Source: Cyclobacteriaceae bacterium (GTDB lineage: Bacteria; Bacteroidota; Bacteroidia; Cytophagales; Cyclobacteriaceae). From it: a DNA stretch of 64,000 nt. The notes under the pieces are model-generated. The model had not been told where the DNA came from and ran no database searches. It saw only the letters and a list, made by a program, of their open reading frames with translations. The DNA is taken from positions 1 to 64,000 of the forward strand of contig PXCO01000040.1 in assembly GCA_003565295.1 (NCBI GenBank), read 5' to 3'. Position 1 is the first letter of the stretch; each line of letters begins with the position of its first letter. A program made the translations under genes and the position numbers. Below, piece by piece: positions 2,972-64,000 of this stretch.

Positions 2972-3280
2972 GTGTTTATAATTGATTTTTATTTGCCACA
3001 TGGAATCTCGCAAATGATAATCATCCATCCGTGCGTCGCTTGCGTCATGCTCGATTTCATCTGTTTATAATTGTCTTTTTATGGTCAGATGGAATCTCTC
3101 AACGATAATCATCCCCCCGTGTGTCGCTCTCGTCATGCCCTGACTGCCGTCAGGACAGGCTCGATTTCATGTGTTTGTATTTTTTTTTCAGCGGCCACAT
3201 GGAATCTCGCTATTTTAATCATCCCACTGTGTGACGTGCTCGTCATGCCCTGACTGCCGTCAGGACAGGCTCGATTTCAT
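2972..3280 (-). repeat. Tandem array of three repeat units ending at the start codon of the downstream gene
   Basis: Read on the minus strand, three units lie head to tail: 3280-3171 (110 bp), 3170-3061 (110 bp) and 3060-2972 (89 bp). Each unit begins with ATGAAATCGAGC and contains GAGATTCCA near its end. The two proximal junctions read ATTATAAACASATGAAA and the third is diverged to TACAAACACATG. The two 110-bp units carry a 22-bp hairpin module (CCTGAC and GTCAGG arms around a GGCA loop) that is missing from the 89-bp unit. The last junction is immediately followed by the ATG of the gene at 2971. No transposase and no CRISPR-like spacing are seen. The short interval 3281-3316 between the array and the end of lipB holds nothing recognisable. 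Confidence 0.9.
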
Positions 3281-49667: not shown

Positions 49668-49785
49668 ACTACGCTAAGATGCCTTGAAACTGGCATTTAA
49701 ATTGATTATTATTGATTAACAAGTTTGTCATTCGTAAACTACAATCAATTGGTTCCTAATTTGGTGTCAAATCGACCATGAAGAG

Positions 49786-60553: not shown

Positions 60554-60590
60554 GCTGCTTGCCTGACTGCAGTGAGGCCTGACCAATGAA

Positions 60591-60749
60591 AGACAATTAT
60601 AAACCTATGAAATCGAGCCTGTCCTGACGGCAGTCAGGACATGACGAGCACGTCACACACTGGGATGATTATAGACTGCGAGATTCCACCCCGACCTGCG
60701 GTACGGGGCAAGTTATGACCGCTGAAAAGACAATTATAAACATATGAAA
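60591..60749 (+). repeat. Second locus of the start-codon repeat family (one full unit plus a partial upstream end)
   Basis: ATTATAAACCTATGAAATCGAGC at 60597-60618 opens a 137-bp unit (60607-60743), which closes with ATTATAAACATATGAAAT at 60734-60750. The hairpin module is complete here: TGTCCTGAC, loop GGCA, GTCAGGACA. An extra GC-rich segment (CACCCCGACC, then GGGGC) makes it longer than the units at 2972-3280. A diverged 3' end of an earlier unit lies at about 60570-60606. The closing ATG is the start codon of the MBL-fold gene. Confidence 0.85.
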
Positions 60750-62180: not shown

Positions 62181-64000
62181 ATGGAGATTGGGGATCTTAT
62201 TTCGAAAGAAACTGGAACAAATGATGATTCAGGGACAAATTTACTTTTTTTAATTAAGCGTTTAACCAGGAATTGGTATTGGATTTTTCTTAGTTTGACC
62301 ATTACGGTAAGCTTATGTATGGTCTATCTGTATTTCCAACCTGATATCTATGAAATTAAAAGCAGTATTCTCATTAACACAGATGAGAAGGGCGCCGAGT
62401 TTTCTGAGAACATTGTTTTGGACGATCTGGAAAATTTCTATTCCTCTAAGGTAGTGGAAAATGAAATTGAAGTATTGACCTCAGTGAATCTCATTCGACG
62501 TACTTTGGAGGAACTAGGGCTACAGAACAGTTTTTATGTACCAAATGGAATTCTTAGGAAAAGGGAGGTTTATGGTGATGAAGTGCCTATTATCATTGAT
62601 TTCAAGGAGTTGCCTACAAGAGTAATAAATGTACCCTCTTTGCACCTGGAGTTTATTGATAATGAGAATTTCTATCTGTTAAATGAAAATGGCAGCAAAA
62701 AAATGGTGAAGTATGGGGAGCCACTGAAAAATAGTGCGGGTGTATTTACTGTTAAGTTAAAAGGTGAAAAACTTCCAGAGCTACCTCCTGAAAACCTAGA
62801 AGTTGTTTTTAATGATTTACGTGAACTAGCTTTTTATTTAAGCGATGAAATAAGTGCAGAGCCTACCAACAAACTGTCCACAGCAGTGGGGATAACCTTT
62901 TATGATCCCCTTCCTGAGAGAGGAGAGATGATTGTTGACAAGTTAGTGGAATTATATAACAAAAGGGCATTTGAGAGTATCAGTTCTACAGCGGAAAACA
63001 CCATTGAGTTTATTGATCTTCAAATGGGGCAATTGACAAAGGAATTGGAAGCCATAGAACTTAAGATTGAAGAATTTAAAAAGAAAAACGAAATATCCGA
63101 TCTCAGTTCTGAGTCCCAATTGTACTTAGAAAGCACTAGGGGAAATAAACAGATGTTGTCTGAATATTACATAAAAATCGACGTATTAAATGATATTATT
63201 CAGGAATTGGAAATCGATGAGGACTCATACAAGGTTTTGCAAGGGGTAATGATTGTTGAAGATCAATCCTTGTCTGATATGATAAATAATTTTAATCAAT
63301 TGCTAAGGGAAAGACAACGATTATTGAAGACCGTGAACCCAAGTAATCCTTTATTGAAGAATTTAGAGGGGCAAATTTTTGATTTAAGGAAGGATATACT
63401 AGAAAGTGCTAAAAATGATAGAAGGAGCTTTCAGGTTGCGGTAAATAATTTGGAAGAAAGCTCTAAGAGAACGGAAGCGAGAGTTGGCAGGGTACCGGTA
63501 ATCGAGCGCGAATTGCTGAATTTGACAAGAGATCAGGGAATAAAGCAAGAAAATTATTTGTACTTAATGAAAAAAAGGGAAGAGGCCATGCTGTCATCTG
63601 CGGCAAACTCGGGGAAAAGTGCAAGAACAATAGACCCTGCGATGGCAGGTATATATCCCGTCAGGCCATTAAAGAAGTTTTTGGTGTTAGCCTCAATTGC
63701 AATAGGTATTGGTATTCCCCTTTCAATTATCGTGATCAGTGATAAGCTTTTTGGAAAGATTACTCAAAAAAGCGAACTGATGAGATTAACCAAAGTACCT
63801 GTTTTGGGAGAGGTGGCCAAAAGTAAAAAGGGAAAGATCTACCTTAAGGACCCTACCCAAAGAAGCATTATTGGGGAGCAGGTTAGTCTGATATGGAGCA
63901 ACCTTAAATATGCCATCAAGGAGGGTGATGGCAAAGTATTAGCATCCACTTCTAGTGTAGGTGGAGAAGGTAAAACTTTTTTCACCATACAATTGGCCAG
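62181..64000 (+). CDS. Wzc-like polysaccharide biosynthesis tyrosine autokinase (3' end beyond the window)
   Basis: This is the first 606 codons of a chain-length regulator and BY-kinase. The order is: a short cytoplasmic lead, helix 1 (NWYWIFLSLTITVSLCMVYL), a Wzz-type periplasmic domain with long coiled coils (SSTAENTIEFIDLQMGQLTK onward), the Pro-rich motif GIYPVRPLKKFLVLASI with helix 2 near residue 500, and the start of the kinase with Walker A SVGGEGKTFF at the right edge. The C-terminal kinase domain and Tyr cluster are outside. It controls polymerisation and export of an exopolysaccharide. Confidence 0.92.
   Translation, partial: MEIGDLISKETGTNDDSGTNLLFLIKRLTRNWYWIFLSLTITVSLCMVYLYFQPDIYEIKSSILINTDEKGAEFSENIVLDDLENFYSSKVVENEIEVLTSVNLIRRTLEELGLQNSFYVPNGILRKREVYGDEVPIIIDFKELPTRVINVPSLHLEFIDNENFYLLNENGSKKMVKYGEPLKNSAGVFTVKLKGEKLPELPPENLEVVFNDLRELAFYLSDEISAEPTNKLSTAVGITFYDPLPERGEMIVDKLVELYNKRAFESISSTAENTIEFIDLQMGQLTKELEAIELKIEEFKKKNEISDLSSESQLYLESTRGNKQMLSEYYIKIDVLNDIIQELEIDEDSYKVLQGVMIVEDQSLSDMINNFNQLLRERQRLLKTVNPSNPLLKNLEGQIFDLRKDILESAKNDRRSFQVAVNNLEESSKRTEARVGRVPVIERELLNLTRDQGIKQENYLYLMKKREEAMLSSAANSGKSARTIDPAMAGIYPVRPLKKFLVLASIAIGIGIPLSIIVISDKLFGKITQKSELMRLTKVPVLGEVAKSKKGKIYLKDPTQRSIIGEQVSLIWSNLKYAIKEGDGKVLASTSSVGGEGKTFFTIQLA

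Follow-up and report, generated by a model that had tools for sequence, protein, structure and literature searches.

A short hairpin-bearing element dispersed in Cyclobacteriaceae genomes, with insertion immediately upstream of ATGAAA and often at start codons

Mobile elements typically arrive at gene starts through chance or selection. REP, REPIN and BIME repeats depend for their movement on HUH enzymes of the Y1 type supplied in trans (PMC2817692, PMC3116915, PMC6006769), and the Bacteroidetes subclass-2.6 TnpA_REP genes are reported to be flanked by "atypical secondary structures" (PMC6006769). A tetranucleotide and hairpin logic has been described for IS200/IS605-type elements (PMC6006769), and the target-adjacent motifs (TAMs) of IsrB are NTGA (PMC9581776). 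The repeat unit described here was compared with these systems. It lies at three places in the window (the whole 64-kb stretch of Cyclobacteriaceae DNA that was analysed) and is best read as a dispersed, non-autonomous, HUH-transposon-like element with start-codon-directed insertion 5' of ATGAAA, a reading to which we assign a probability of roughly two in three.

Units and genes in the window

The initial annotation had described a 137-bp unit joined to the start codon of an MBL-fold gene, and both the junction and a perfect 8-bp hairpin were recovered (Table 1). The span first given, 60591-60749, holds the unit itself, and its extra stretch also covers the box that remains of a truncated unit just before it. 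The unit opens with ATGAAATCGAGC, closes with GACAATTATAAACAT and is followed by ATGAAA. An in-frame TGA was located at 60723-60725, as claimed, so that the closing ATG stands as the gene start; its assignment to the element was given up, the ATG being better read as the insertion target. The similar leader reported before an unrelated gene on the opposite strand proved to be an array of three tandem units. The two genes are unrelated, as had been stated: the MBL-fold product matched Lactamase_B in Pfam (E 3e-26), while the 132-aa protein had no Pfam match. A third locus, before an NlpE-like gene, was absent from that account. The mechanical ORF list places the start of the NlpE-like gene at 49778, inside the degenerate unit.

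Table 1. Coordinates of units, structural parts and adjoining genes in the window
Feature	Start	End	Strand	Details
137-bp unit (core plus two optional GC hairpins)	60607	60743	+	ATGAAATCGAGC...AATTATAAACAT
Remnant 3' part (tail and box) of an older, truncated unit directly upstream of the 137-bp unit	60569	60606	+	nhmmer model positions 111-163
Helix P1	60611	60685	+	AATCGAGC (60611-60618) with GCGAGATT (60678-60685), tandem G.A inside
Optional hairpin A	60621	60640	+	GTCCTGACGGCAGTCAGGAC, perfect 8-bp stem
Helix P2	60642	60655	+	TGACG-AGCA-CGTCA, 4-nt loop, strong covariation family-wide
Optional hairpin B	60689	60708	+	CCCCGACCTGCGGTACGGGG
A-rich 3' tail	60714	60743	+	box GACAATTATAAACAT (60729-60743); predicted translation-initiation region of the MBL gene
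ATGAAA target	60744	60749	+	start codon and codon 2 of the MBL gene
MBL-fold hydrolase gene	60744	61634	+	Lactamase_B, 296 aa
Three tandem units	2972	3280	-	2972-3060 (core), 3061-3170, 3171-3280
Gene of no assigned family	2573	2971	-	132 aa; ATG (2971) closes the three-unit array
Degenerate unit	49778	49873	+	covariance model, E 4e-3
NlpE-like lipoprotein gene	49874	50299	+	starts at the ATG closing the degenerate unit

Units were scored with a covariance model trained on 77 units. The three minus-strand units gave E-values of 2e-19 to 4e-15, the unit at 60.6 kb gave 5e-5, and the truncated older unit was matched at 60572-60606 (E 0.05). A further match at 63202 (E 0.32) was taken as chance. 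As a single strand, the 137-bp unit folds better than its shuffles, with z = -2.7 whether treated as DNA or as RNA.

Architecture and dispersal of the unit

The core of the unit measures 87-94 nt. Its 5' part holds ATGAAA, the P1 5' arm AATCGAGC and P2 (TGACG-NNNN-CGTCA), and its 3' part holds a spacer of 21 or 24 nt that includes GGGATGATTAT, the P1 3' arm GCGAGATT and an A-rich tail of 31-33 nt that closes with the box. With GC-rich hairpins added at fixed spots, unit sizes cluster near 88, 111 and 136; the element is a core of about 88 bp that reaches 110-137 bp or more once such modules are present.

Both helices covary. P2 occurs as TGACG/CGTCA, TGAGG/CCTCA, TGACT/AGTCA and TGTTG/CAACA, and P1 as AATC/GATT and AACC/GGTT, with AATGCCC/GGGCATT in a second unit type; the tandem G.A mismatch of P1 is retained. 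The covariation score was 0.170 against 0.060 +/- 0.008 for shuffled data (0/500), and 91.7% of the cells in P1 and P2 were paired, compared with 9-40% when the arms were slid. P1 and P2 rest on this covariation test of a named structure; RNAalifold, run unguided, proposed no fold. Mismatch cells comprised 13 G.T and 17 A.C, and with counts this similar there is no RNA-type wobble bias and no sign of selection as RNA on either strand. The lack of a G·U bias fits a folded single DNA strand, and the helices may act in RNA.

Several variants were seen. The second unit type, with P2 as TGAGAA/TTCTCA, is mixed into arrays with the first (L107, L111, L112, L121 and others). A long variant carries an extra conserved module, TTGGCATTTACAGAAAGGAAATGAC ... 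GGCCGCAACGAATCCGC (L086:424, L117:8573, L100:9972 and, on the minus strand, L115 at 962). At L089:7160-7235, two unit left ends placed head to head form an almost perfect palindrome of about 48 bp. In a genome of another genus (G104; L186-L195), other palindromic modules (CGCGTCGCCGAAGCTTTAGCGGAGGCGC) fill the unit spacer, like nested repeats in loops.

The initial annotation had proposed a dispersed element family, and hundreds of copies were found. The source assembly (403 contigs, 5.6 Mb) held 133 matches to the box GACAATTATAAACATATGAAAT with at most 3 mismatches, against 0 for the reversed control. The core (terminal) box with at most 1 mismatch was counted 268 times there and 344 times in the sister species Pleomorphovibrio marinus, the reversed pattern again giving 0, which excludes chance. 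A profile built from the unit found 130 units in 77 arrays within about 784 kb of the source genome and P. marinus, a sample picked around known copies, so that this density is not genome-wide. Six source-genome contigs (C10, C165, C176, C267, C295 and C314) start inside or beside a unit; the repeats break the assembly, and the copy counts are therefore probably underestimates.

Distribution is patchy over the Cyclobacteriaceae. Core-box counts across 148 genomes ranged from 0 to 344, most of them near zero, and other genera contributed genomes with 110, 171, 84 and 62 boxes. Counts diverged within a genus as well (5 and 84 in one, 171 and 58 in a second, 1 and 21 in a third). Species of Algoriphagus, Cyclobacterium, Lunatimonas and Lunatibacter are among the named carriers. 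No DNA similar to the unit was found in the phage and plasmid collections searched.

Junction, target and sites in relatives

Nearly all recognisable array ends read TATAA(A/T)CAN followed directly by ATGAAA. In the source genome and P. marinus, 62 of 77 arrays had a recognisable end, and 37 of these 62 open an ORF of at least 100 aa. Named genomes of Algoriphagus, Cyclobacterium, Lunatimonas, Lunatibacter and Pleomorphovibrio gave 72 array ends once 16 that run into another unit had been set aside, and 51 of the 72 lead into an ORF of at least 60 aa. About 60-71% of array ends are thus starts of genes, which are unrelated to one another, and the remainder end at an intergenic ATGAAA. Going by their N-termini, the genes behind arrays presumably include those for glycerol kinase, argininosuccinate synthase, peptidyl-tRNA hydrolase and 6-pyruvoyl-tetrahydropterin synthase (6-PTPS), as well as queA and lspA. 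Array ends were co-oriented with the leading strand in 46 of 66 cases, genes in 342 of 496 and non-genic ends in 21 of 30.

The hexamer is strongly preferred, since ATGAAA opens just 74 of the 456 native genes that lack the element. This fixed short target (ATGAAA, or TTTCAT on the other strand) flanks one end of the element, whose termini are not inverted. At the left end, ATGAAA is kept in 84 of 119 leftmost units and nearly always in inner units. A target-site duplication was considered; where left and right hexamers deviate they do not co-vary, and the left ATGAAA was therefore counted as part of the unit.

Sites without the element were found in relatives, with the ATG intact, as the initial annotation had proposed to look for: about 11 of 15 P. 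marinus orthologues of element-preceded genes have no element before a start codon that is still present. Of these, lspA is the clearest, a textbook empty site. In the source genome, GAGAAAGCATAGACT is followed by ATGAAATCGAGC, the first bases of a 366-bp insertion ending in AACAG, and then by ATGAAATATTTTAGA; in P. marinus, GAGAAAGCATAAGCT is joined to ATGAAGTATTTTAAA. Put more generally, the flank GAACTCACCGTTAAGGTAGAGAAAGCATA(GA/AG)CT leads directly to ATGAA(A/G)TATTTT in P. marinus and to 366 bp (three units) and then ATGAAATATTTT in the source genome; the upstream gene stops a few bases before this flank junction. The sites at pth, queA, a gene of the FAH family and others are also empty in P. 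marinus, as is that of the NlpE-like gene (CCCTAACT joined to ATGAAATCG). The orthologue of the gene starting at 2971 has the same ATGAAA start and no element in another genome (G048).

At the MBL gene the unit is present in both the source genome and P. marinus, and this insertion, common to both species, is not a polymorphic site. Two more insertions are shared with matching junctions, one at L095/L126 and one at the 6-PTPS gene, where P. marinus has one unit more. These sites indicate that insertions built up gradually: some predate the divergence of the two species, and most are younger (or were later lost from one of the two). In 7 of the 11 empty orthologues, codon 2 is something other than AAA, so the element may bring ATGAAA along with it, instead of using a pre-existing target.

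The start-codon link is largely a product of the ATGAAA target and the loss of gene-breaking insertions. Among ATGAAA sites outside coding sequence, gene starts make up at most 45% (99 counted as start-like, which is an overestimate, against 121 intergenic), compared with the 60-71% of occupied ends, and a moderate excess at gene starts remains beyond target choice and loss. This excess is what would be expected if the same mobile element were kept for host benefit, as an initiation region or promoter, with selection explaining the start-codon link. The tail is A-rich and open (A content 0.62 against 0.39 at native starts, local MFE -2.3 against -4.0 kcal/mol), and some insertions are retained across species. 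However, gene-less intergenic insertions have an identical junction, and target choice by itself is therefore enough to produce the geometry. The tail has A at -6 and -12 and C at -3, and in Flavobacterium johnsoniae A is favoured at -3, -6 and -12 (PMC6847099), by which rules this C is not optimal. Selection as the cause of the link is accordingly held to be rather doubtful, and insertion directed by ATGAAA is the reading carried forward.

Mobilisation and relation to known systems

In the preferred reading, the element inserts in one orientation, immediately 5' of ATGAAA (3' of TTTCAT when read on the bottom strand). Genes here open with ATGAAA more often than with any other hexamer, and in-gene insertions are presumably lost, so that most survivors lie exactly between the native 5' UTR of a gene and its ATG. 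The reading frame is left untouched, and the A-rich, weakly structured tail would become the new translation-initiation region, which probably makes the insertion tolerable. The unit itself opens with ATGAAA, so re-insertion onto an old copy would yield the head-to-tail arrays. The element is proposed to move as a folded single DNA strand, handled in trans by an enzyme of the HUH (Y1-type) or a similar class. A target at one end, termini that are not inverted, conserved hairpins, no coding capacity and self-insertion all fit non-autonomous single-strand processing. Read on the bottom strand, TTTCAT both precedes the unit and closes it, which would resemble the IS200/IS605 type of cut-and-insert.

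Y1 genes are common in Cyclobacteriaceae, and none of the Y1 transposase genes in 49 genomes was linked to a unit. No unit adjoined a Y1 gene at 50 Y1 loci searched with the profile and the box. At 45 Y1 loci the covariance model found a single unit, at a distance of about 1 kb from a gene that is damaged. At L090, where a partial unit lies 0.3 kb from a damaged Y1 gene, the proximity was judged coincidental, since this unit precedes another gene. No clade of the Y1 tree tracks unit copy number. One genome (G014) has 28 Y1 transposase matches with mostly identical scores, apparently an expanding IS200-type element.

The unit could belong to a family of the REP/BIME type that a resident TnpA_REP (RAYT) mobilises, for example one of Bacteroidetes subclass 2.6, given that it is short, high-copy, hairpin-bearing and unlinked from genes. 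Genes resembling that subclass (NHLH..YIHQNP) are present in seven genomes (G001, G019, G022, G104, G059, G109 and G118), and TnpA_REP genes with similar NH.H ... YIH.NP motifs were recorded at L138, L143, L144, L147, L148, L150, L173-L175, L184 and L185. Yet no unit lies near any of them, and the source genome, with its 268 copies, has only two Y1 matches, one damaged and neither subclass-2.6-like. The unit is moreover asymmetric, has no GTAG foot and carries a 32-nt single-stranded tail, so that we regard this origin as unlikely.

Descent from an OMEGA-type transposon (IsrB/IscB, HEARO), as a relic structured RNA element that inserts beside NTGA, appears very improbable. In its favour, the four bases that adjoin the element on its 3' side are almost always ATGA, and the element is structured and lacks inverted termini. 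Against this, no RRXRR (IscB/IsrB) protein was matched in 39 relatives, where the positive control was equally silent, and no TnpB-type domain was found in 10 high-copy genomes, where the control was detected. Rfam searches at gathering and relaxed thresholds matched no RNA family, HEARO being unmatched even at E 10, and the unit has 88 nt where the IsrB omega-RNA has about 300 nt. A cis-acting regulatory leader conserved across one regulon (a riboswitch or thermometer) would account for covarying helices always in sense directly upstream of ORFs, but as an origin it is refuted by unrelated genes, empty sister-species sites, some 30-40% of ends without a gene, head-to-tail arrays, genome-wise patchiness and the silence of Rfam, although later co-option at individual genes could survive.

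Bacteroidota ribosomes make no use of Shine-Dalgarno sequences. As a tentative extension of the mobile-element reading, DNA that targets ATGAAA, moved by a not-yet-recognised enzyme, might swap the 5' leaders of about 100 genes per genome with the proteins untouched, a recurrent genome-wide rewiring of translation initiation. With start codon and codon 2 as the target, an insertion is protein-safe and yet replaces the leader, which suits a selfish element in dense genomes. Occupied and empty starts form a natural series in Bacteroidota, in which the effect of a leader on expression is testable across orthologues. For annotation, a warning follows, as ORF callers stretch some genes into units.

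No prior description of this unit family in Cyclobacteriaceae was found in the open-licence literature. With REP, REPIN and BIME sequences and their RAYT enzymes the unit shares its short length, hundreds of copies, hairpins, non-coding and intergenic nature and ability to cluster (PMC2817692, PMC3116915, PMC6006769). It differs from them in that its consensus has no GTAG or GTGG foot at P1 or P2, and in that it is not a simple palindrome, has fixed 5' and 3' ends and a hexamer target at start codons, and has no linked RAYT. The IS200/IS605-derived stem-loops of Borrelia are likewise ssDNA-type hairpins that spread without a transposase and are attached to genes, with insertion directed by a short sequence (a tetranucleotide) and no inverted repeats (PMC2775950); they sit at gene 3' ends, whereas the unit sits at the start codon and inserts in tandem into itself. 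As in the IS200/IS605 type, the hairpins (P1 and P2) are conserved as structure. ISC and IsrB-IscB (HEARO) elements resemble the unit in the ATGA directly after the 3' junction; for the unit, in contrast, no guided-nuclease gene and no Rfam match were found, and it is far shorter (about 88 nt, against about 300 nt). Correia elements and other prokaryotic MITEs often lie immediately upstream of genes (PMC10969869), but the ends of the unit, ATGAAATCGAGC and AATTATAAACAN, are not inverted, its hexamer is fixed and its ATG junction is precise, not approximate. CGTC-tagged palindromic repeats are likewise reported from Bacteroidetes without a dedicated transposase, but are palindromes of 20-40 bp and are not known to target start codons (PMC3733652). 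The unit is best classed, broadly, as a small non-autonomous mobile element, and its distinguishing trait is start-codon-directed insertion.
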